Assembly: GCA_016875255.1 (NCBI GenBank)
Contig: VGRU01000108.1
Coordinates: 1-11,552 of the forward strand
Length of the DNA stretch: 11,552 nucleotides
Direction of reading: 5' to 3'
Source of the DNA: Deltaproteobacteria bacterium
Lineage (GTDB): Bacteria; Desulfobacterota; BSN033; UBA1163
Position numbers and translations under genes: made by a program. The notes beneath the pieces were generated by a model that worked only from the letters and a program-made list of their open reading frames with translations, ran no database searches and was not told the origin of the DNA. Of the stretch, positions 2,383 through 11,480 are shown one piece after another. Within the stretch, counting starts at the first letter, position 1. The number at the start of each line of letters is the position of its first letter.

Positions 2383-3888
2383 TTATGAATGCGGCTGAGG
2401 GTTCGATTCTTTTGGGAGCAGAACAGTGAAGGTGGTGCCTCCTCCTTCCTCACTCTCGACGGAAATAGATCCGAGATGAGCATCCACGATGCTCTTGACG
2501 ATGGAAAGACCGAGGCCTGTTCCGACGATCTGGCGGGTCTCGATGGTCCTCACCCGGTAAAATTTATCGAAGATACGCGGGAGATCATCTTTCTTGATGC
2601 CAATGCCTGTGTCTGAAACCAAGGCTTTGGCAAATCCTCTCTCTTCGCTCAGGCTCACCCAGACCTTTCCTCCCTCCGGAGTATATTTGATCGCATTGGA
2701 GATGAGGTTGGTAAAAATGCCTTCCATGCTGGTCCGGTCGGCGTGGATGAGCGGATTTTGAGACGGGATAGGAAACTGGAGGTCGATCTTCTTGTTTTCA
2801 GCCTCCACCCTCATTAAGTCCACCACTTTCTGAATGATCTCCTGGAGTGTCAGGGGCTCCTTGTATTGGACCATTCTTCCTGCCTCAATTTTGGAAAGGT
2901 CGAGCAGATCCTTGATCAGGTTGAGCAGTCCCTTTGTCCTCTCTTTGGCGCGGACGAGCAGTTTCTCCTGTTTTTCGGTGAGGTCTCCGGCCACGCGATT
3001 GAGGATGACATTGAGTTGTTGTTCAACGGCGGCGATCGGCGCTCGAAGTTCGTGAGCGACCATGGCGATAAACTCCGATTTCATTTTATCGAGTTCTTTC
3101 AGATGGCTGATATCCTGCAAAACGGTGACAGAGCCCATGGTTTCGCCAAGGTCACTCCGGACGGGCGCAGTGTGGGCGCGCAAAAAGGTTTCACCGGATT
3201 CACCTATCCCCAATTCCTGGGACACAGAGGTATAATTCAGATCTTTTGACTTCAAGCTCTCCTCAATGGTCATGGATAGTTCCGGGTCAAGGTTGCACTG
3301 GGAGAGAAAATTTCCGATCAGGGAGGTTTCGGAAACCTTCAACATTCGGCCGGCGGCGGGATTGGTGAGAACAATATAACCGTCCCGGTCACAGACCAGG
3401 ACGCCATCCCCCATACAGTTGATGATCGTTTTGATCTTCGATTTTTCCGTCGCAATATCCCGAAGGGATTTCTCCCGCTCCCGTCGTAGGAACTCCGCCT
3501 CTTTTTGCAGATTCCTTTTATCCAGGGCTCTTCTGACGACAATGCGGAGCTGGTCGGGAGTGAACGGCTTGGGGATAAAATCGTAGGCTCCTTTCTTCAT
3601 CGCCTCCACGGCCGACTCGACCGTGGCGTAGCCGGTAATGACGATGACGAGGAGGTTTGGATCGATTGACCGGATGTGGTCCAGAACTTCCATTCCGCTC
3701 ATCCCCGGCATCATCAGGTCCAGGAGGATGACATCGATCTGGTCAGGCTGATTCCTGATGATTTCGAGCCCCTGTTGCCCGTTATCAGCCGTGAGGACTT
3801 CCCATCCGTCTTTGGAGAGGATGCGGGAAGAGCCATCCCGCATGATCTGTTCATCGTCGACAACAAGAATGTTGATTGGGTCAGGCAT
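2383..3888 (-). CDS. Hybrid: receiver-PAS-histidine kinase
   Basis: About 501 aa, apparently soluble. A receiver domain fills residues 3-118: acidic pair near 11-12, phospho-acceptor D57 in LLDLMMPG, T85 and K107 of the PKPF motif. A coiled linker leads to a PAS domain at about 150-262, then a HisKA domain with H279 in MVAHELRAPI. The HATPase has N-box NLISNAIKY (394-402), G1 DTGIGI (426-431) and G2 GTGLGL (456-461). With the receiver at the N-terminus, this kinase can itself be switched by phosphotransfer, probably from the upstream kinase. The ATG at 3888 has an AGGGG site 5 nt upstream and leads straight into the receiver (MPDPINILVVDDE). A GTG at 3909 would add only seven residues and would make the RBS coding. 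It is the last gene of the minus-strand run and has no DNA-binding output. Confidence 0.9.
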   Translation of the reverse strand: MPDPINILVVDDEQIMRDGSSRILSKDGWEVLTADNGQQGLEIIRNQPDQIDVILLDLMMPGMSGMEVLDHIRSIDPNLLVIVITGYATVESAVEAMKKGAYDFIPKPFTPDQLRIVVRRALDKRNLQKEAEFLRREREKSLRDIATEKSKIKTIINCMGDGVLVCDRDGYIVLTNPAAGRMLKVSETSLIGNFLSQCNLDPELSMTIEESLKSKDLNYTSVSQELGIGESGETFLRAHTAPVRSDLGETMGSVTVLQDISHLKELDKMKSEFIAMVAHELRAPIAAVEQQLNVILNRVAGDLTEKQEKLLVRAKERTKGLLNLIKDLLDLSKIEAGRMVQYKEPLTLQEIIQKVVDLMRVEAENKKIDLQFPIPSQNPLIHADRTSMEGIFTNLISNAIKYTPEGGKVWVSLSEERGFAKALVSDTGIGIKKDDLPRIFDKFYRVRTIETRQIVGTGLGLSIVKSIVDAHLGSISVESEEGGGTTFTVLLPKESNPQPHS

Positions 3889-3913
3889 GTCTTCCCCTAT
3901 AAGGAGCACTTCG

Positions 3914-4030
3914 CTTGAGGAGCGCCCTGCCGCAGGACTTGAGGCAGGAGGTAACTGATCCTGCGGCAGGCCCTCAATTTCATATCCTCAAGGCCAGAAG
4001 GGCCGCTCCTCAAGTCCTGCCTTGCAGGAC
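3914..4030. repeat. Nested inverted-repeat cluster
   Basis: Several perfect inverted repeats overlap in this short gap. CTTGAGGAGCG (3914-3924) pairs with 4004-4014. CCTGCCGCAGGA (3926-3937) pairs with 3959-3970. GCAGGACTTGAGG (3932-3944) pairs with 4008-4020. GTCCTGC/GCAGGAC (4014-4020/4024-4030) forms a tight hairpin with a 3-nt loop. Because the arms overlap, alternative folds compete. It lies between the response regulator and the hybrid kinase, so in the transcript it could act as a processing or attenuation structure, or it may simply be an inserted palindromic repeat. Confidence 0.7.
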
Positions 4031-4041
4031 GATCCTCTATC

Positions 4042-4425
4042 TCATTTTGAGAGCAGGGCTTCGATTCGCTTCACGAGAACCTCGGGCTCGACGGGTTTAT
4101 CGATGTAATCATCTGCCTCGGTCTCCATACCCATCTGCTGGGTGTAGCGGGTGGTGGAGATCTTGGAGACGACCGCTGTCAGAAGAAGGACGGGAATCCT
4201 GCTCAACTGGGAATCGGCTTTCAATTCCTTGCAGACCGCATACCCGTCCTTGTCCGGCATCATCACATCGAGAACGATCAGATCCGGATTCTCGGACTTT
4301 GCCTTCTGCAATCCCTCTATTCCGCCATAGGCGGCCGCAACATCGTAATTCTTCGACTCCAGGATCATTGATACTGCTTCCACCAAATCCGGATCGTCAT
4401 CCACAATCAATATCTTCTTCGCCAT
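4042..4425 (-). CDS. Single-domain response regulator (CheY-like)
   Basis: 127 aa, a receiver domain and nothing more. It begins KKILIVDDDPDL, with acidic residues at 9-11. The phospho-acceptor is D53 in VLDVMMPDKDG, the conserved Thr is T83, and the conserved Lys is K110 in DKP. There is no effector domain, so it must act by protein contact or as a phosphorelay intermediate. The start has a strong GGAGGG site about 8 nt upstream. It lies 48 nt after the three-PAS kinase and before the hybrid kinase, so a relay between these three products is likely. It is slightly unusual in having an insert-like stretch around 86-100 (VSKISTTRYTQQMGM) before the final DDYIDKP, a pattern seen in some phosphorelay receivers. 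Confidence 0.92.
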   Translation of the reverse strand: MAKKILIVDDDPDLVEAVSMILESKNYDVAAAYGGIEGLQKAKSENPDLIVLDVMMPDKDGYAVCKELKADSQLSRIPVLLLTAVVSKISTTRYTQQMGMETEADDYIDKPVEPEVLVKRIEALLSK

Positions 4426-4473
4426 CTTCTTACCCTCCTTCTGCGATGTTTGATTTGGTCGCTCGTCTATCTC

Positions 4474-6402
4474 TTATCCTTGGTTATTTTCGAGGTGAAC
4501 GGGGAGCTCGATCGCAAACGTCGCGCCCTCGCCGACCTTGCTATTCACACTGATTTTTCCTCCATGCTCTTCAATGATTCCAAAAGAGGTGGCAAGCCCC
4601 AAGCCGGTCCCTTTTCCTACGTCCTTTGTCGTGAAAAAGGGGTCAAAGATACGGGAGAGGTTCTCTTCTGGGATGCCTTCACCCGTATCCGTAAATCCAA
4701 TCCATACCGTCTTCCTGTCCGCAGAGACCGAGGTCCGGATGGTTAGGGTCCCGTTCCCATGCATGGCCTCTGCCGCATTGACGATAATATTCATAAAGAC
4801 CTGTTTCAGTTGGCCTGAATTTCCCCGCACAAAGGGCAGGAAGGGGTCCAACTCCTTGACGATCCGGATATTATGGAAAAGGGCCTGATTGACCAGGAAG
4901 AAAAGCCCGTCGTTGATCGCCCGGTTAATATCCGTGGGTTCCCGCTTCGGTTCGGTCTGTCGGGCAAATTCAAGCAGACCTTTTACGATCTCCTTGCAGC
5001 GTCCCGCCTCCTGGACAATTCGGGCAAGGTCGCCCCGTTTGGGATCTTCCTCCGGCAGGTCCTCCAGCATCAGACTGGAGTAAATGAGGATGCCGCCCAG
5101 GGGATTGTTGATCTCGTGGGCAATGCCGGCGGCCAGTTTTCCGAGGGAAGCCATCTTCTCAGAGCTGACCAGCTGAAGATGGGTCTCCTGAAGTTTTTTC
5201 TCCATCAACAGACGGGACCTCAGGTCGGTAAAGATGCCGACACTGGCTACCTCCTGCCCGGCTCTGTTGTAAATGAGGGCGGCGGAGATTTGTATGGGTA
5301 TCTCTTCCCCCTCCTTATTAACCACGTTGAATTGAGTGGGAAGGAGTTTTCCAACTCCTCCGTAATCCGGGCTCCGGAGCCTTTTCATAATCTCCTTTGC
5401 AATCCCTTCGGGGTAAATCTGGGTGATGTGAACCTTTCCGATCACCTCATCGGCCTTATATCCGCTCAGGGCCTCCGCCCCTTTATTGAAGATGAAAATA
5501 TTTCCCTGCATATTGGCGGCGATGATGCCATCGACAGAACTCTTAATCAGGTTTGTGAAGAATTCATTGGCCTCACGGAGTTCGTCTTCAATCCGTTTCC
5601 TCTCCGTGATGTCCAGGTTAATCCCTTCATAACCGATGATTTCGCCTTTTTCGTTTTTAATGGGATGGCCGGTCAGCAGGATCGTAATATTATCCCCATT
5701 CCTCTTGCGGAATTCCACCTCCATGTCTTTGACAAAGCCGTCCCTCTCGGTCCTTTCCATAAAAATTTCCCGGTCTTTCGGGTTGACATAGAGATCCCGG
5801 GCAATATCGATTTTGAGAAATTCCTCTTTGTCGGTATAACCCATCATGTCGAGAAGGGCCTGGTTGCATTCGAGGAACTTGCCCTCTTTCGAGCTGATGA
5901 AAAGGCCGTGTCTTACCCTGTCGAAAAGCCTCCGGAGCTTTTCTTCGGAGTTCTTTAAATCGCTTTCATATTTTTTCCGGTCCGTGATATCCTTGAGATA
6001 GGCATAGCCTTTTCGGATTCCATGAGATGTCTTGGCCAGGGCAATGCAGATTTCGGCTTCCTTGACCTCACCGGTGGAGGTGATCAGATGGGCTTCTGCG
6101 CAGGTTTTTTCGCCATACCGTTCGGGATGGATGAAGAGGTCTTCGATAAAGGACTGATGGGGTTTGTCGAGAAGCGAGAGAATGGTCATCTCGAGTAACT
6201 GCTCGTTTCTATATCCGGTAACCTCCGAGGCCACTCGATTGGCATATTCGATCCGGTGATTTTTATCGAAGACGAGGATCCCGTCGTTGCCAAGCTCGGC
6301 AATGGCCTGAAACATCCCGGCCTCTTCTTTCCGGTCGACAAGGACGAGTGGATGGGCCGTCCTTTTTCTTTTTGTCGGTGGAGATAGTTTCTTCGCCATC
6401 AT
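4474..6402 (-). CDS. Three-PAS soluble histidine kinase
   Basis: About 642 aa from the ATG at 6402 (an adjacent ATG at 6399 is equally possible). Three PAS domains lie at about 31-143, 154-267 and 279-394, the first two ending in the usual DITDRK/DITERK linkers. HisKA has the phospho-acceptor H429 in LGKLAAGIAHEINNPLGG. The HATPase shows N-box NIIVNAAEAM (538-547), G1 DTGEGI (572-577) and G2 GTGLGL (598-603). This is an NtrB/AtoS-like kinase type. There is no membrane segment or signal peptide, so it senses a cytoplasmic cue such as redox state or a ligand; PAS cofactors cannot be read from sequence. The frame stays open to an ATG at 6555, but that extension is translated repeat DNA (IPLNPPFSKGE) and overlaps metF, so I reject it. 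The RBS (GGAA) is weak, which suggests low expression or coupling. Confidence 0.88.
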   Translation of the reverse strand: MMAKKLSPPTKRKRTAHPLVLVDRKEEAGMFQAIAELGNDGILVFDKNHRIEYANRVASEVTGYRNEQLLEMTILSLLDKPHQSFIEDLFIHPERYGEKTCAEAHLITSTGEVKEAEICIALAKTSHGIRKGYAYLKDITDRKKYESDLKNSEEKLRRLFDRVRHGLFISSKEGKFLECNQALLDMMGYTDKEEFLKIDIARDLYVNPKDREIFMERTERDGFVKDMEVEFRKRNGDNITILLTGHPIKNEKGEIIGYEGINLDITERKRIEDELREANEFFTNLIKSSVDGIIAANMQGNIFIFNKGAEALSGYKADEVIGKVHITQIYPEGIAKEIMKRLRSPDYGGVGKLLPTQFNVVNKEGEEIPIQISAALIYNRAGQEVASVGIFTDLRSRLLMEKKLQETHLQLVSSEKMASLGKLAAGIAHEINNPLGGILIYSSLMLEDLPEEDPKRGDLARIVQEAGRCKEIVKGLLEFARQTEPKREPTDINRAINDGLFFLVNQALFHNIRIVKELDPFLPFVRGNSGQLKQVFMNIIVNAAEAMHGNGTLTIRTSVSADRKTVWIGFTDTGEGIPEENLSRIFDPFFTTKDVGKGTGLGLATSFGIIEEHGGKISVNSKVGEGATFAIELPVHLENNQG

Positions 6403-6417
6403 GAAAAAGGTTCCATA

Positions 6418-6494
6418 AAATCCCTCCCCACCTCCCTTTGCCAAAGGGAGGAGAAATACTTCCCCCTTTGAAAAAGGGGGATTGAGGGGGATTT
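6418..6494. repeat. Palindromic intergenic element with two hairpins
   Basis: Two perfect hairpins sit side by side: CCTCCCTTT/AAAGGGAGG (6431-6439/6443-6451, loop GCC) and CCCCCTTT/AAAGGGGG (6462-6469/6473-6480, loop GAA). Outer ends AAATCCC (6418-6424) and GGGATTT (6488-6494) are complementary. The layout matches a repeat class common in intergenic DNA of many anaerobe genomes, which translates to peptides such as LNPPFSKGE when it falls in an open frame. It fills the gap between metF and the kinase gene. It has no coding capacity of its own, so it would have to be moved or copied in trans, if at all. Confidence 0.75.
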
Positions 6495-6509
6495 GGGTAT
6501 CATCATCTG

Positions 6510-7382
6510 TTACAACCCCGCCTGGTCGAGAAGGATAGGAACGAGAGGTTCCCATCCGAGAGGAACGATCTGAATGCCCTGGCAGAGGGGTGTAACGTCT
6601 CTGATGAGATCTCCGGCGATTTCAATGCTTACTTTCTGCTTATCAGGGGCCTTGAGCAAGCGATCGATGATGGCATCCGGGATGGATGCCCCCTCCACAT
6701 GTTTACTGATATAGCGGGCCATTCCGACCGATTTGAGCAGGGTGATGCCCACAATGACAGGGACTTTGAAGTGGGCCGCTTTCTTCATGAAATTTTCAAG
6801 CAAGCCCGGATCGTAGATGGAACCAGCGAGGAAAAAATTGGCCCCCTCGCGGATCTTTTTCTCCATGGTCATGAGCTCGAGGTCGAGGCAATGGCCCTGG
6901 GCGGCCGCATTGATCTGGGTTCCGACAAAGAACACGGGTTTTCCATTGAGGTCATTCCCGACGAGATCATAGCCTTCCTGGAGACGTTTGGCAGCGCCAA
7001 GCAAGCCCATCACATCGAGATCAAAAACAGGTTGAGCGTCAAAATGATCCCCCATGGAGGGAGGATCGCCCTGAAGGAGGAGGAGATTCTTCAAGCCAAG
7101 GGCAGCCGCATTGAGAAGTTCCGATTGAAGGGCCAAGCGGTTTCGATTGGCACAGGAGAGATCGTAGATGACTTCCATTCCTTTTTCCTTCAGGAGGGCG
7201 CATGCCGAGAGTGAGCCCAGCCTCATGATCCCGTTCTGGAGGTCTGGAATCATGACCGCATCTACCCGGTTCCGCCAGCGTTCCGCATATTCATAGAGTT
7301 CGGAGAGATCGGTCCCTTTTGGGGGTTGAAGTTCAGCCGTTACGGCAAACTTCCCTGAATGGAGTTGATCCTTAAATGACAT
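6510..7382 (-). CDS. metF: Divergent MetF (methylenetetrahydrofolate reductase family)
   Basis: 290 aa, the usual length for the catalytic TIM barrel of MetF. Family features: E17 in TAELQPP (position of the catalytic Glu), the run NRNRLALQSELL (79-90) and GDPP (105-108) near the flavin, then KSVGMARYISKHVEGASIP (217-235). MetF interconverts 5,10-methylene- and 5-methyl-THF. The odd point is residues 186-188: where the family, including the 305-aa paralogue in this window, has a Thr-Gln that contacts folate, this protein has AGS (FFLAGSIYD). Its substrate handling may therefore differ, or it may need MetV to complete the site. The start has a GAGGAG site about 8 nt upstream. A strong promoter lies about 120 bp upstream, and metV is the gene before it. 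The three signalling genes follow downstream. Confidence 0.85.
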   Translation of the reverse strand: MSFKDQLHSGKFAVTAELQPPKGTDLSELYEYAERWRNRVDAVMIPDLQNGIMRLGSLSACALLKEKGMEVIYDLSCANRNRLALQSELLNAAALGLKNLLLLQGDPPSMGDHFDAQPVFDLDVMGLLGAAKRLQEGYDLVGNDLNGKPVFFVGTQINAAAQGHCLDLELMTMEKKIREGANFFLAGSIYDPGLLENFMKKAAHFKVPVIVGITLLKSVGMARYISKHVEGASIPDAIIDRLLKAPDKQKVSIEIAGDLIRDVTPLCQGIQIVPLGWEPLVPILLDQAGL

Positions 7383-7504
7383 GGGTTTTCTCCTCTCGAG
7401 TCAACTCAAGCTGTAAACGTCCTGCGTTCCGGATGGATGAGCGGTTCCAACAGAACGAATCTTTCCGATGGAGGTCTATGTCACGCCAAGGGAAAAGTGG
7501 CCAC

Positions 7505-7532
7505 ATTATATAATTTAGAGGAAAAAAGTCAA
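7505..7532 (-). promoter_or_regulatory. Near-consensus sigma70 promoter upstream of divergent metF
   Basis: On the minus strand, TTGACT (7527-7532) and TATAAT (7505-7510, perfect -10) are separated by 16 bp that are T/A-rich. Transcription would begin near 7498, giving a leader of about 115 nt before the ATG at 7382. The leader holds an imperfect palindrome, CTCGAGT-CA-ACTCAAG (7395-7410), close to the RBS, which could be an operator; that is speculative. This is the best promoter in the window and suggests that metF and the signalling genes can be expressed independently of metV. Confidence 0.6.
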
Positions 7533-7566
7533 TGGGTTGTCTTCTCCGGGGGTAAGTTATCCCATC

Positions 7567-8241
7567 TCATTTGGCATATCTCTTTTGATAAGCTTCGTGA
7601 ATCATTGTCCCACGGGTCTGGTTTTTCCACTCCCTTGCAGGCTTGACCTTCAGAATGTTCTCCAGCCGGCTCTGATCCTTCAGTCGTTTGAAAATTTCAT
7701 ACCAGGCGCAGGGGGTGTCTTTGCTCACCTCACACTTTCCTTCCCGGGAGGTTCCACCGCAGGGGCCGTTGAAAAGGCTTTTTGCGCATCGGGTGACCGG
7801 GCAGATCCCTCCGGTTTCACCGATGACGCATTCTCTGCAGGTCCGGCAATTTTCCTCAAACCAGCCGACATCCTTGTCGATTCCGACAAAGATGGTGTTT
7901 AGAGCGGGGAAAACGGGCTTTTCAGGGTATCGGTCGGCCAGGAATTGGACGCCGGCGCCGCAAGCCATGGAAAGAAGGGCGTCGTAGTTTCTTGCGATTT
8001 CATCCAATTCGGGATAAAAATCGGCGTTGCACTGGCGCTCTATCGTAAAGCCGTCCGGCCGGGTGGCCATCCCCTCCTGCTCTAAACTATTTTTCAGGTC
8101 TTCATTGAGTAACCCGACTTCCCTCTGTCCGCCCGTATAGCAGATGGAAGTGCATCCTCCGCAGCCCACGGTTAAGAGCTTTTTGTAGCTTTTGACCATC
8201 TCCTTGATTTCATCCAAAGGTTTTCTTTCAGCGACGATCAT
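7567..8241 (-). CDS. metV: MetV, cysteine-rich partner of MetF
   Basis: 224 aa, matching the methylene-THF reductase C-terminal/MetV family (zinc- and Fe-S-binding partner of MetF in acetogens and related anaerobes). It starts with the family-typical MIVAERKPLDEI. Thirteen cysteines are visible: C27, C30 and C34 (GCGGCTSIC), C71, C94 (ACGAG), then a dense C-terminal block with C132, C135, C138 (CRTCREC), C147, C152, C161 (GPCGG), C170 and C178. The end block resembles the canonical MetV signature FNGPCGG...KCEV...CAWY. MetV passes electrons to or from the MetF flavin. An RBS of GGAGGAG lies about 5 nt upstream of the ATG. It is preceded by the cytochrome c3 gene (54-nt gap) and followed by the divergent metF, so its electron partner may be the cytochrome/Fe-S/cytochrome b set, not the usual HdrABC or ferredoxin-linked proteins. 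Confidence 0.9.
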   Translation of the reverse strand: MIVAERKPLDEIKEMVKSYKKLLTVGCGGCTSICYTGGQREVGLLNEDLKNSLEQEGMATRPDGFTIERQCNADFYPELDEIARNYDALLSMACGAGVQFLADRYPEKPVFPALNTIFVGIDKDVGWFEENCRTCRECVIGETGGICPVTRCAKSLFNGPCGGTSREGKCEVSKDTPCAWYEIFKRLKDQSRLENILKVKPAREWKNQTRGTMIHEAYQKRYAK

Positions 8242-8295
8242 TTTTCTCCTCCAGTATGTAGAACATTTAAAGGTTTTTCAAGACTCTGTACTCTA

Positions 8296-8697
8296 TCACT
8301 TCCGGATATGGCATCCCCCGCAATATCGGGGGGGAGCCTTTTTCTGTTCTTTCAGAGGTTTCTTGTGGCAACCCATGCATTGCCCGTGATAGGCCTGTTC
8401 AAGGGTGAGCCTGGCCTTTGAACCATGGCAGGAAGAACAGAAAATCTCTTTGTTTCCTTCGGTCAGGCTGCTTTCATCCAGGACATTTTTTCCTTTTTCA
8501 TAAAGATGGTGGCAATCTTTGCAGTCCAATCCTTTCTCGACATGGAGGTTATGCGGGAAAGGGACAGGAGGCCGCTTTTTCCCAGGCAAACCCTTCATTG
8601 AATCGAGGATCATCACGTCCGATTGGGCCAGGAGGGAATTTGCCAAAAGGACAAAAGAAAATGCGATAAAAATCGTCCGGAAACCTAACCTTTTCAT
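8296..8697 (-). CDS. Periplasmic tetrahaem cytochrome c3-type protein
   Basis: 133 aa. The first 25 residues form a signal peptide: MKR, a hydrophobic core IFIAFSFVLLANSLL, and a likely cleavage after LLAQ. Four CxxCH haem-binding motifs follow: CKDCH (59-63), CSSCH (87-91), CMGCH (107-111) and CGGCH (126-130). Extra histidines H49, H52, H64 and H104 sit where cytochrome c3 has its distal ligands (FPHNLH, CHH, YHGQC), so four bis-His haems are expected. The length and layout fit class III cytochromes of sulfate reducers, closest in context to the TmcA type, although this is inferred from neighbours. A good AAGGAG site precedes the ATG. The gene lies 33 nt after the Fe-S protein gene and 54 nt before metV, so a periplasmic electron carrier is embedded in a folate-enzyme cluster. 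Confidence 0.92.
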   Translation of the reverse strand: MKRLGFRTIFIAFSFVLLANSLLAQSDVMILDSMKGLPGKKRPPVPFPHNLHVEKGLDCKDCHHLYEKGKNVLDESSLTEGNKEIFCSSCHGSKARLTLEQAYHGQCMGCHKKPLKEQKKAPPRYCGGCHIRK

Positions 8698-8730
8698 ATT
8701 ACTCTCTCCTTCGGAAAAACCTATTTCTTT

Positions 8731-9144
8731 TTACAGCCAGCTCTCCGGAGAAGCTTCGTCAAGCTGGGGGTAGACCTCCTGTGACCTTACGATGGTTCGG
8801 GCAAAGGCGATCATGCTCGGGACATGGATGCCGATCGGACAGTAACAGCGGCCGCAGAGCACGCAGTTTTTCCATACGATCCCCTTGATTTCGTTTAAAA
8901 ACTTCCAATCCACGTTGCCTCTCTTCTTGTAGAGTTTCCCGAGAGAGTTGATCACCTTGTAAGAGGGCATATATTTCGGATCCTTCTTATATTTCATATA
9001 GAGAAAACAGCTTTCGGCACAGAGACTGCAGTGGGCGCAATAGGAGAGGAACCGTTTCATTTTTCCCTTCCTGCGGTTGAGCAATGATTTAATCTTTTTC
9101 GTATCAACCTTCTTCGTTTCCTGATTTGGAACGGTTTGATTCAT
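8731..9144 (-). CDS. Small two-cluster Fe-S protein (HdrC/TmcB-like N-part)
   Basis: 137 aa, basic at the N-terminus (TKKVDTKKIK), soluble. The first motif is C36-C39-C42-C46 (CAHCSLCAESC), a good 4Fe-4S site. The second is C94-C97-C100-C102 followed by P (CVLCGRCYCPIGI). The usual ferredoxin pattern is CxxCxxCxxxCP; here the last spacing is one residue instead of three. The protein resembles the Fe-S part of HdrC, DsrK or TmcB, but stops before any CCG domain, so it lacks the heterodisulfide-type active site. It would serve as an electron wire between the NarI-like protein and a cytoplasmic partner, plausibly MetV. No transmembrane segment is seen. It is preceded by the NarI-like gene across a 90-bp gap with a hairpin. 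Confidence 0.82.
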   Translation of the reverse strand: MNQTVPNQETKKVDTKKIKSLLNRRKGKMKRFLSYCAHCSLCAESCFLYMKYKKDPKYMPSYKVINSLGKLYKKRGNVDWKFLNEIKGIVWKNCVLCGRCYCPIGIHVPSMIAFARTIVRSQEVYPQLDEASPESWL

Positions 9145-9181
9145 ATGGCGTCTCCTTGTGCTTTACACTGTAAGAGATCAT

Positions 9182-9216
9182 GTCCTGCCGGGCTTCGAGT
9201 CCCGCTATGGCGGGGC
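9182..9216. repeat. Short structured repeat in the narI-like/Fe-S gap
   Basis: CCCGC (9201-9205) pairs with GCGGG (9210-9214) around a TATG loop, preceded by TCCTGCCGGGCTTCGAGT. The layout resembles the right arm at 4009-4030, where CTCAAGTCCTGC-CTT-GCAGGAC shows paired substitutions in the same stem. No T-run follows, so I do not call a terminator. It may nevertheless separate expression of the membrane subunit from the downstream genes. Confidence 0.5.
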
Positions 9217-9234
9217 TGAAATGTCTAACCGGGT

Positions 9235-9900
9235 TTACCAGGTTCTCGATCCCCGCAGAAAACTATATTCCCCTCCGATGAAGAAACGGTAAAGAAAGAA
9301 AAAGAGCATGTGCCCGAGCTTGGTGAAGGGAATCGTGATGAGCATGATTTCTCCTGAGAGGATATGCACCAGCATCACCGTCTCATAATGGAACCACTGA
9401 TGATAAGCGAAAAACCCCGTCAGAAAGGGGGCGACAGCGATGAGCCAAACGACATAGTCATAAATCGTTGTAATTGCCCTGACCTTAGCCAAAAGGATGC
9501 GCCGTCCGAGAAAATAGACTCCGCAGAGAAGAACGATCAGGGTCAATCCGTCGGACAGGGGTTCAGGGAAACTGAACAGGCTCCATCCGCAGGATTGATC
9601 GAGAAGGATATTGTGTCCGAGCAGGAAGAGGGGCGTCAGGATCAGAAGGACATGGAAGACGGAGGTTGCAACAGTCAGGACAGGATCGGTTTTCCAGAGG
9701 GTTCCATTCAGGGAGGCTAAGCATGAGGCAAGGATTTTCTCTGCGGTTTTCTTTTCGGGTTTCATCTCATAGGCAATGGGAAGACGACCCCACTCCTTCT
9801 TTCGGGTGAGCCTGAAAAACTGGATCAACTGGAAGAGGATCCCCAGGATAAATATGATAAAGGCAATTGTTATCAACGGGCCCTGAACAAAATCAAACAT
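9235..9900 (-). CDS. NarI-like di-haem cytochrome b membrane subunit
   Basis: 221 aa with five likely membrane segments at about 8-28, 78-98, 117-133, 150-166 and 175-203. It fits the NarI/DsrM/TmcC superfamily of quinone-reactive cytochrome b subunits. Candidate haem ligands are H83 and H96 on one side and H179 and H197 on the other. The 18-residue spacing of H179/H197 equals that of the two C-terminal haem ligands in E. coli NarI (H187/H205). H167 and H171 lie in a loop (YHQWFHYE). Such proteins exchange electrons between the menaquinone pool and an Fe-S partner. A cytoplasmic loop at 30-75 is rich in Lys and Arg. The GGAG RBS is good. The gene follows metF (305 aa) across a 189-bp repeat-rich gap and precedes the Fe-S protein, which is the expected partner. 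Confidence 0.85.
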   Translation of the reverse strand: MFDFVQGPLITIAFIIFILGILFQLIQFFRLTRKKEWGRLPIAYEMKPEKKTAEKILASCLASLNGTLWKTDPVLTVATSVFHVLLILTPLFLLGHNILLDQSCGWSLFSFPEPLSDGLTLIVLLCGVYFLGRRILLAKVRAITTIYDYVVWLIAVAPFLTGFFAYHQWFHYETVMLVHILSGEIMLITIPFTKLGHMLFFFLYRFFIGGEYSFLRGSRTW

Positions 9901-10089: not shown

Positions 10090-11007
10090 TTAAACCACAG
10101 GCCTGGGCAACAGTTTTGCACGCTCTGCAATCTCCGGCACCTTGTGCTCCCATTCGATGGCCATGAGATGAACCCCATGAACCCCTTTCATCTCCTTCAG
10201 CTCTTCGATCTGTTCCACGCAGAACTGGATCCCTTCTTCAGCGGGTTTTTTTGCCTGCACAATCCGGTCGATGACATGGTCCGGGATGATGATGCCGGAA
10301 ACGTTCTTCGCCATATAGCGGGCCATACCTCCTGATTTAAGAGGGGTGGTCCCCGCCAGAATATGAACTTTTTCCGTCAGGCCCATATCATTGGCCTGTT
10401 TGATCCATTCACGGAACATCTTCATATCATAAATGCACTGGGTCTGAATAAAATCCGCTCCGGCCTCAATCTTTTTGGCCAGGCGATAGACCCGCCAGTC
10501 AAAAGGCTCGGCGAATGGATTTTCAGCCGCCCCGATAAACATCTGAGGGGGGCCGTCAATCTCATCGCCATTGAGAAATTTTTTATCATCCCGCATCTTT
10601 TTGACGAGCCCGATGAGCTGAATGGAATCGATATCGAAAACGCCCTTGGTCAGAGGGTGGTTTCCGAACTGCTGGTGATCGCCGGAAAGGCAGAGCATGT
10701 TCCGGATGCCATGGGCATAGGCTCCGAGGATATCGCTCTGGATGGCAATGCGGTTACGATCCCGGCAGACCATCTGATAGTTGGGCTCCAGGCCCTCCTG
10801 AATGGCGATTAAACCGGCTCCCCAACTCGACATGCGGACCACCGCGGTCTGGTTGTCCGTGATATTGACCGCATCAACGATCCCTTTTAGGTAACTTGCC
10901 TTTTTTCTGACGTGTTCAACATTGGCTCCCTGAGGGGGGCCGAGCTCCCCTGTGAATGCAAAATGCCCGGCTTCAAGAGTTCTTTCAAGACGGCTTCCTG
11001 ATTTCAT
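10090..11007 (-). CDS. metF: MetF, canonical methylenetetrahydrofolate reductase
   Basis: 305 aa with the complete MetF signature. E21 in TGELGPP is at the position of the catalytic Glu. NITDNQ (48-53) and RDRNRIAIQSDILGAYAHGIRNMLCLSGD (82-110) form the flavin side of the barrel. T189-Q190 in FIQTQCIYD is the folate-contacting pair. It ends in a conserved-looking MAIEWEHKVPEI. It catalyses the methylene-/methyl-THF step of the Wood-Ljungdahl and methionine pathways. It shares with the 290-aa paralogue the GMARY block and the VIDR helix, so both come from one family but have diverged. The RBS is a loose GGAAAGGG about 8 nt upstream. It follows the 134-aa protein across 68 nt and precedes the NarI-like gene. 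Either paralogue could pair with MetV. Confidence 0.92.
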   Translation of the reverse strand: MKSGSRLERTLEAGHFAFTGELGPPQGANVEHVRKKASYLKGIVDAVNITDNQTAVVRMSSWGAGLIAIQEGLEPNYQMVCRDRNRIAIQSDILGAYAHGIRNMLCLSGDHQQFGNHPLTKGVFDIDSIQLIGLVKKMRDDKKFLNGDEIDGPPQMFIGAAENPFAEPFDWRVYRLAKKIEAGADFIQTQCIYDMKMFREWIKQANDMGLTEKVHILAGTTPLKSGGMARYMAKNVSGIIIPDHVIDRIVQAKKPAEEGIQFCVEQIEELKEMKGVHGVHLMAIEWEHKVPEIAERAKLLPRPVV

Positions 11008-11075: not shown

Positions 11076-11480
11076 CTACACAAAATTACAAATCTCAGGC
11101 AATCTTTTTCCGGGTTGCGAGCCGCGAATATAATGAATCATATGATTAATGGTGGCAATGGCCAGAACAGATAGGTCATCCCCTTGTAACTCTCTCACCT
11201 TCTCTCCGGCAAAGAGGACCTGCATGGAGGGGGGAAACTCCTCGTCCTTACGGTTATAGAGGAAATAAGCTTCCACTCCCGGGTAGAACATTTTTTTCAC
11301 CATCCAGTCACAACGGATGGAAGGCGATGCGACTCGCTCTCCGCCAATATAATCGGCCATCTTTTCCACATCGTCAAGATATTCAAAAGCCTCCGATCTC
11401 CTGGCCACCTCTTTTTTGAGATAGAGATCATGAACCACCACCCCTTCGATCTCCTTCAGGGTTAAGAATTCCTTATCCAT
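11076..11480 (-). CDS. Uncharacterised 134-aa protein next to ferredoxin
   Basis: I do not recognise this family with confidence; a distant link to DUF3786 is only a guess from context. The protein is soluble and acidic, with one patch of basic residues. A central stretch reads PGVEAYFLYNRKDEEFPPSMQ, and a final helix-rich part reads LSVLAIATINHMIHYIRG. Only two cysteines (C58 and C131) are present, so it is not an obvious Fe-S protein. Its ATG overlaps the end of the upstream ferredoxin-like gene (ATGGATAA holds both the start and the TAA of the other frame), which implies translational coupling. An AGGAGG site about 9 nt upstream supports the start. It is probably an accessory protein for the same anaerobic C1 or redox cluster. 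Confidence 0.6.
   Translation of the reverse strand: MDKEFLTLKEIEGVVVHDLYLKKEVARRSEAFEYLDDVEKMADYIGGERVASPSIRCDWMVKKMFYPGVEAYFLYNRKDEEFPPSMQVLFAGEKVRELQGDDLSVLAIATINHMIHYIRGSQPGKRLPEICNFV

Follow-up and report, generated by a model that had tools for sequence, protein, structure and literature searches.

A conserved gene module that joins MetV and MetF to Tmc/Hmc-type cytochromes: a putative integral-membrane methylene-tetrahydrofolate reductase

An 11,552-nucleotide stretch from a Deltaproteobacteria bacterium (GenBank assembly GCA_016875255.1, contig VGRU01000108.1; hereafter the window, meaning this stretch at its full length) carries genes that probably encode an integral-membrane methylene-tetrahydrofolate (THF) reductase complex. 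In this complex, a transmembrane conduit of the Tmc/Hmc type would carry the enzyme pair MetVF in place of the HdrD-like part with its CCG domain, a reading to which we give a probability of about three in four. The module of cytochrome b, Fe-S protein, cytochrome c, MetV and MetF is real, conserved and distinct, a variant of the MetVF-type methylene-THF reductase apparently built on a Tmc/Hmc-type membrane base. How the methyl-THF/methylene-THF step ties to the membrane is a standing question in acetogens and acetate oxidisers, and the module brings together, in conserved form, the components of a transmembrane path; at least one cultured carrier, putatively Desulfococcus multivorans, has it.

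MetV and MetF lie in a run of Tmc/Hmc-type genes

The run is on the minus strand of the window, where the last part of a ferredoxin-like gene is followed by a DUF3786 gene, metF, cytochrome b, the Fe-S protein, a tetrahaem cytochrome c, metV, metF2 and a PAS-histidine kinase. The gaps between cytochrome b, Fe-S protein, cytochrome c and metV are 90, 33 and 54 bp. A preliminary description of this DNA had placed metV in a short-gapped co-directional run with a cytochrome c3, an Fe-S protein and a di-haem cytochrome b, with MetF genes on both sides; both the coordinates and the functions were confirmed. The genes are listed below with the E-values of their family matches.

11076..11480, minus strand: DUF3786 protein, the first complete gene of the run (PF12654, 1e-9)
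10090..11007, minus strand: metF (MetF1), catalytic subunit of a flavin-type methylene-THF reductase, 305 amino acids (PF02219, 2.3e-38)
9235..9900, minus strand: TmcC/HmcE-type cytochrome b, perhaps NarI-like and putatively di-haem, 221 amino acids (TmcC, 2.4e-60; HmcE, 1.8e-53)
8731..9144, minus strand: stand-alone two-cluster Fe-S protein, 137 amino acids (HmcF, 6.5e-31; TmcB, 1.6e-24)
8296..8697, minus strand: TmcA-like periplasmic tetrahaem cytochrome c3, 133 amino acids (PF02085, 1.5e-12; TmcA, 1.3e-24)
7567..8241, minus strand: metV, second subunit of a MetVF-type methylene-THF reductase, 224 amino acids (PF12225, 2.5e-34)
6510..7382, minus strand: metF2, second metF paralogue, 290 amino acids (PF02219, 1.1e-26)

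With MetF (PF02219) and MetV (PF12225) encoded together, the window has the gene content of a MetVF-type enzyme, and MetF1 is the MetF that travels with the module.

The module is conserved across rearranged loci

A contig scan with the Fe-S protein returned ten loci, all ten with MetV, cytochrome b and MetF. We then ran a profile of the protein over 395 genomes from the phylum of G001, the genome of locus L001, which is near-identical to the window. The matches, in 123 genomes, divide into a class of 31 short, free-standing frames (124-183 amino acids, E ≤ 8.7e-52) and a class that starts at E 2e-44 and consists mainly of longer frames, often 440-530 amino acids long. Two more short frames score in the range of the second class: the one in G257 has the module motif described below, and the one in G392 is a TmcB truncated where its contig ends. 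The stand-alone Fe-S protein is present in 32 of the 395 genomes and, in the class of G003, in four of nine genomes, all four with MetV.

A same-strand MetV gene lies within 3.5 kb of the short Fe-S gene in 37 of 39 loci and in none of 45 control loci (Fisher 8e-22, in a test that ignores kinship). The 39 loci exclude repeats of L001-L010 (L026, L027, L028, L030, L031, L036 and L088), the window itself, for which L001 stands in, and L079. They include two pairs with identical rows that are probably from the same genomes (L008/L089 and L009/L087); without repeats the MetV count is 35/37. The controls were picked, not randomly, from the longer Fe-S-profile frames, which are TmcB/HmcF relatives, and several of their loci are cut short by contig ends. 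MetV otherwise occurs near controls on the other strand in L111 and 9 kb off in L119. Among the 39, the exceptions are L078 and L037, the latter truncated where its contig ends. A same-strand cytochrome b accompanies the Fe-S gene in 38/39 loci, and MetF is adjacent in most.

Gene order varies among these loci. The most frequent arrangement is MetF-CytB-FeS-CytC-MetV (18 loci), followed by CytB-FeS-MetV-MetF (seven) and MetF-CytB-FeS-MetV-HmcA (five), and there are single orders such as MetV-CytB-FeS-CytC and CytC-MetV-CytB-FeS; the linkage has therefore survived rearrangement. In the preliminary description, conservation of gene order was set as a test, which would fail if the order were unique to this genome or if relatives kept the cytochrome, Fe-S and NarI-like genes apart from metV. 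It is not unique to this genome: the stand-alone Fe-S protein occurs in the 32/395 and 4/9 genomes above, and such separation was looked for and not seen in 37/39 loci, with L078 as a true exception. A chance or genome-specific order is rejected by the same recurrence in related loci (37/39 versus 0/45).

The Fe-S protein lacks the CCG part of TmcB and HmcF

The window's Fe-S protein covers only positions 34-154 of the 457 of HmcF and 17-136 of the 430 of TmcB. A domain search found no CCG domain (PF02754) in it, which sets it apart from TmcB and HmcF; this domain was present in all four full-length TmcB/HmcF relatives tested. By these alignments the protein, with eight invariant cysteines, is the N-terminal ferredoxin part of HmcF/TmcB without the HdrD-type CCG part. 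Its second cluster motif is CxxCxxCxC in 46 of 47 module-labelled rows; the odd row, L079, is a TmcB whose contig stops within the gene. All 45 controls have CxxCxxCxxxC and none has CxxCxxCxC. Two extra residues in the second [4Fe-4S] motif distinguish the 45 TmcB/HmcF relatives examined from the module protein, and this difference is a simple marker. In the tree, the Fe-S domains of module and controls are split at 99*, L079 aside; all trees reported here are quick searches and unrooted. We rejected the possibility that the protein is a truncated or mis-assembled TmcB, as it forms one tree group with its own cluster motif. L111-L114 hold yet another sub-type, intermediate Fe-S relatives of TmcB with 255-261 amino acids that lie beside a cytochrome b; in L112, the member tested, the frame contains no CCG. 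Fusions of the Fe-S protein with MetV were not seen among the short frames, judged through open-frame lengths only.

The neighbourhoods of the module are likewise poor in CCG proteins. A profile search found a CCG frame in two of 69 module loci (a set that includes duplicates and 3.4-kb pieces), 6-8 kb off in L007 and about 2.5 kb off in L069. At genome level, 31 of the 36 module genomes have no TmcB of at least 700 bits, and five have one. The earlier proposal that MetFV takes the place of the HdrD-like subunit is thus well supported at gene level. MetV does not seem to be a relative of the CCG-bearing part it would stand in for, a possibility rejected at an hhalign probability of 0.5% (four TmcB/HmcF sequences).

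The cytochromes resemble those of Tmc and Hmc

The cytochrome b of the window aligns with TmcC and HmcE over its full length, and is under the NCBIfam cut-offs of both (203.8 of 240 bits for the curated TmcC cut-off). Histidines 83, 96, 179 and 197 are invariant in 83 rows (39 module and 44 control sequences, with frames of more than 260 amino acids trimmed to their last 240 residues), and would fit as ligands of two b haems. There are six hydropathy peaks, of which the last two overlap. The match to PF02665 is under the cut-off (0.0034), and the family profile finds the nitrate reductase gamma chain 1q16_C (4.7e-5) over 37 positions without the four invariant histidines. Module and control rows (39 and 44) are split in the tree by one change (100*).

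The cytochrome c3 has an N terminus that looks signal-like by eye, four CxxCH motifs at 59, 87, 107 and 126, and conserved histidines 49, 52, 64 and 104, the features of a class III cytochrome c. TmcA is its nearest family, at 86.4 bits with a curated cut-off of 114. Because all three score below the curated cut-offs, we regard cytochrome b, Fe-S protein and cytochrome c as relatives, not members, of the curated Tmc and Hmc families.

The module comes in two forms. In the c3 form, that of the window's kin, the tetrahaem c3 lies between Fe-S protein and MetV. In the Hmc form (L010, L063, L068, L072-L076), HmcA with 16 CxxCH motifs follows MetF, and HmcB and HmcC come next as far as the contigs reach; the Hmc family names were assigned in L010 and transferred to the remaining loci by similarity. 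A multihaem c cytochrome (CytC or HmcA) is near the module in 29/39 loci, and wider flanks add seven more (36/39). In L007, L049 and L078, neither type of cytochrome c gene was detected next to the module.

Module MetVs and MetFs form groups of their own

The 36 module MetVs and 27 other MetVs are split at 99* in the tree, and four genomes (G001, G002, G003 and G004) each hold MetVs of both groups. The 29 MetFs from module loci form one tree group (SH-aLRT 92, not starred); L011 in this tree is the HdrA-linked MetF of G001 and not a module MetF. PF12225 matches occur in 300 of the 395 phylum-sample genomes, so the module group accounts for a minority of MetVs. We examined 20 non-module MetV loci from the top of the PF12225 list. 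Same-strand HdrA was found in 19, weakly in L131 and L136, and L150 is the source of the query; neither the cytochrome b nor the Fe-S protein was found in any of the 20. Locus L150, which is in G001, encodes MetF, MetV and a 1477-residue HdrA2-like protein. Because G001 has this HdrA-type MetVF locus as well, its module is, by gene content, an additional methylene-THF reductase and not a replacement. An HdrA match at 1e-20 is found in 7/40 module loci, close by in L077; in L002, L005, L006, L008, L057 and L080 it lies at the edge of the locus or kilobases downstream.

Searches of PDB sequences with the single MetV, Fe-S protein and cytochrome b returned nothing at the thresholds used, and MetF1 matched at 1e-10 only; MetV and Fe-S profiles also returned nothing at thresholds. 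The MetV profile detected several single-chain proteins of 509-674 amino acids (L061:6852-8861, L060:4686-6707, L062:268-1851, L064, L065, L081 and L023). The two tested, L061 and L062, carry both PF02219, the MTHFR domain, and PF12225, the C-terminal domain of MetV, and are MetF-MetV fusions; some of the set adjoin the module.

The module seems to accompany the Wood-Ljungdahl pathway

Genes for carbon monoxide dehydrogenase/acetyl-CoA synthase (CODH/ACS) directly precede the module in L010, L063, L068, L072 and L075 and, at contig edges, also in L070 and L074; they were not in the stretches examined of L073 and L076. In L010, the Hmc form is directly behind acsD-cooS-acsB-acsC-acsE, with MetV-MetF between the Fe-S protein and HmcA-HmcB-HmcC. 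CODH/ACS also precedes the c3-form module in L005 and L080, and in L001 the module and DUF3786 follow CdhC-, AcsC- (CODH/ACS), NuoE-, NuoF- and NuoG-like genes. Across 34 genomes (one of which, G392, has dsrA and is not a module genome), 31 have a CODH/ACS match, 23 of them over the cut-off, and dsrA is over the cut-off in eight. On these counts, the module seems to be tied to the Wood-Ljungdahl pathway and not to sulfate reduction.

Carriers include uncultured bacteria labelled Syntrophaceae, Deltaproteobacteria or Proteobacteria. One carrier genome was taken to be Desulfococcus multivorans DSM 2059, a putative identity. Its module is at 2.378 Mb, and its MetF gene at 1.22 Mb. According to the parts of PMC5109826 available to us, the second Tmc cluster of D. 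multivorans, tmcA2B2C2, is located at 2.38 Mbp, so the module sits at the tmcA2B2C2 place. MetV follows the cytochrome c there. The same source describes membrane-enriched fractions from all 17 conditions as containing the majority of the Tmc constituents at rather low abundance. A search of its text found no occurrence of metF or methylene.

Flanking genes

The second paralogue, metF2, is perhaps accessory. It lies 3' of metV in the window's closest kin (L001-L006, L056, which is the same place as L004, L057 and L080). Directly before it is a promoter-like sequence, TTGACT-16-TATAAT, at 7532-7505 (sigma-70-like, 11/12 match), and metF2 may have a transcript of its own; the window holds seven promoter-like sites where 4.2 are expected. 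Further 3', positions 2383-6555 encode a PAS histidine kinase, a receiver-PAS-kinase hybrid and a receiver protein standing alone (4042-4425); of these, the PAS histidine kinase is conserved in the closest sister loci. A plus-strand gene at 553-2118 encodes a protein with DUF4062 and HATPase_c_4 (RecG C-terminal type) domains and has no relation to the module. On the other side, DUF3786 genes go with the module, including at L078:6388-7026, where MetV is missing. In L001, NuoE-, NuoF- and NuoG-N-like genes at 4540-7780, between the AcsC-like gene and DUF3786-metF, are a possible entry for NADH. Rfam and tRNA scans of the window gave nothing informative.

A possible electron path across the membrane

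Gene content, conservation, separate tree groups, loss of the CCG domain and conserved haem and cluster ligands were all computed directly; from them we infer physical contact, an electron path and a function as follows. The cytoplasmic MetVF, with flavin and Fe-S, would dock on the dedicated two-cluster Fe-S protein, and this in turn on the TmcC/HmcE-type di-haem cytochrome b in the membrane. Cytochrome b would connect to the periplasmic multihaem cytochrome c, which is c3 here and HmcA with HmcB/HmcC in other lineages. Electrons could thus pass from MetVF through the two clusters to the inner-side and then the outer-side haem b, and on to the periplasmic cytochrome c. In the oxidative direction, electrons from methyl-THF (about -200 mV) would leave to periplasmic c cytochromes and then to H2, formate or extracellular acceptors. 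Outward movement of electrons with protons kept inside would cost membrane potential, and this potential could drive the uphill transfer to H2 or formate. Run reductively, the path would take electrons from the periplasm to methylene-THF inside and build proton-motive force. The preliminary description favoured methyl-THF oxidation; this part is less supported, as sequence cannot tell the direction of electron flow.

No quinone would be required, though other lineages may have a quinone branch. Quinone-free working fits the window's kin, since no menaquinone-pathway marker reached its cut-off there. Viewed from gene content, the module is most likely a fifth, integral-membrane type of methylene-THF reductase outside the known types. 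The fuller proposal is a transmembrane, charge-moving and quinone-independent fifth class, a coupling site within the Wood-Ljungdahl pathway that makes proton-motive force reductively and spends it oxidatively in acetate or fatty-acid oxidation. This we put forward tentatively, at slightly less than even odds.

Several observations weigh against a membrane complex of this kind, in addition to the limits of the Fisher test and of the trees given above. In L078 (G257), a module-type Fe-S protein and cytochrome b are found behind acsE with no adjoining MetV; G257 lacks a MetF match and does not appear in the list of PF12225-matching genomes. The best MetF is unlinked to the module in G165, G336 and G109. 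In G109, an HdrD/TmcB-like gene with an in-frame TGA, perhaps encoding selenocysteine (L069:12866-14404), lies about 2.5 kb from the module MetV, and an HdrA-like match is close by in L077; other partners are therefore possible at these two loci. Both cytochromes are under the TmcC and TmcA cut-offs. Finally, in the putative D. multivorans locus the Fe-S gene encodes 127 amino acids, at odds with TmcB2, which is given as 50 kDa and went undetected in the parts of PMC5109826 seen. A separate observation concerns G336, which has two similar HdrD/TmcB-like matches with one TGA each.

Among other explanations, the best surviving is a methyl-THF:menaquinone oxidoreductase, in which the Fe-S protein would relay electrons from MetVF to a quinone site of cytochrome b, and cytochrome c would be secondary. 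A cytochrome b that is perhaps NarI-like and has candidate ligands of two haems suits this, the transfer would be downhill by about 125 mV (from -200 and -74 mV in the portion of PMC13391211 consulted), and a quinone-linked reductase was proposed for Thermacetogenium phaeum (PMC6895022, in part). MqnA/D family matches are over the cut-off in 21/36 module genomes, and L007, L049 and L078 are without a cytochrome c of these types beside the module. Yet a c-type cytochrome accompanies 36/39 loci, and MqnA/D and MqnC are under the cut-off in all ten genomes with the best Fe-S scores. MenD is over the cut-off in 0/15 genomes and MenB in 0/18 (the best is G358, 332.4 versus 342.7 bits), these ten included. 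The best-Fe-S genomes are mostly in many contigs. In G001, dsrA was found together with a DsrK-like match, and such genes usually accompany menaquinone; a menaquinone pathway may therefore have gone undetected, and its absence is no proof. We consider a menaquinone-linked enzyme unlikely, at about one chance in four. Of the earlier suggestion that the enzyme couples to menaquinone or periplasmic cytochromes, the menaquinone half is the less supported.

Less probable still is that the genes are co-regulated neighbours, with a soluble ferredoxin- or NADH-linked MetVF and the Tmc-like genes forming a separate complex for other Wood-Ljungdahl electrons (CODH, NuoEF). The NuoE-, NuoF- and NuoG-like genes in the same run in L001 would be in keeping with this, as would the cytochrome/Fe-S pair beside acsE without MetV in L078. 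NuoE/NuoF matches, however, are restricted to L001-L004 and L056, as opposed to MetV in 37/39 loci, and the module MetV differs from HdrA-linked MetVs even within one genome (G001-G004). That the module is a Tmc/Hmc variant whose partner is still an HdrB/HdrD-like CCG protein from another locus, MetV being no more than a neighbour, is highly improbable: all 36 module genomes loosely match the TmcB family (matches that include the module Fe-S protein itself, the sole match in G007), many have HdrD-like frames and L069 has an HdrD-like gene nearby, but CCG frames and TmcB of at least 700 bits are as rare as described above, and with dsrA over the cut-off in only 8/34 genomes, DsrC reduction, the proposed job of Tmc in the sections of PMC10553843 seen, is mostly not needed.

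Comparison with known systems

Four methylene-THF reductase types are recognised in the consulted part of PMC13391211, and the enzymes are described with NADH, ferredoxin, RnfC2 or Hdr-type partners in that of PMC9430772. In the open-licence literature searched (titles, starts of abstracts and passages), we found no description of MetV or MetF encoded with a Tmc/Hmc-type cytochrome, and the arrangement is not named in the portions seen of PMC9430772, PMC10553843, PMC5109826, PMC11887813, PMC2702500, PMC6895022, PMC13391211, PMC13040438 and PMC9012536. A membrane carrier, menaquinone or a hypothetical Q-cycle protein is still invoked in passages of PMC9430772, PMC13391211 and PMC13040438. The preliminary description took characterised MetFV enzymes to be soluble, which is incomplete: membrane-associated activity is reported, without a membrane-spanning subunit, for Sporomusa ovata and T. 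phaeum (passages of PMC9430772 and PMC6895022).

The type IV enzyme of Moorella and S. ovata, MetVF-HdrABC-MvhD, shares MetV and MetF homologues with the module. Judging from the text seen of PMC9430772, the S. ovata MetVF is partly membrane-associated and membranes perform H2-dependent methylene-THF reduction, with HdrCBA-MvhD as the link and no transmembrane helices found in the subunits. The module instead comes with cytochromes b and c and an Fe-S protein dedicated to it, its MetV belongs to another group, and no HdrA match at 1e-20 was found in the window to place it in type IV (MvhD was not searched for). The scheme inferred there for S. ovata is like ours, but the module has identifiable membrane subunits. 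T. phaeum oxidises methyl-THF with artificial acceptors in washed membranes, and its metFV cluster includes hdrA and an MvhD-type gene, with no cytochrome of its own in the table seen (PMC6895022, in part). The MetVF core is also shared with the third type, MetVF-RnfC2, where RnfC2 gives NADH as the donor (PMC9430772, in part).

On the membrane side, the module shares a TmcC-like cytochrome b, a TmcA-like tetrahaem c3 and a TmcB-like ferredoxin domain with the Tmc complex (TmcABCD) of sulfate reducers. It differs in having MetVF instead of the CCG domain of TmcB and in the second cluster loop that is two residues shorter. The Hmc-form module shares HmcA, HmcB, HmcC and an HmcE-like cytochrome b with the Hmc complex (HmcABCDEF), whereas its counterpart of HmcF is the ferredoxin domain alone, and MetV-MetF lies between this and HmcA in L010. 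These comparisons suggest that the Tmc/Hmc-type membrane base can accept more than one kind of catalytic head on its cytoplasmic side, HdrD-like or MetVF. Encoding of MetVF together with such a base also suggests that the enzyme exchanges electrons directly across the cell membrane.

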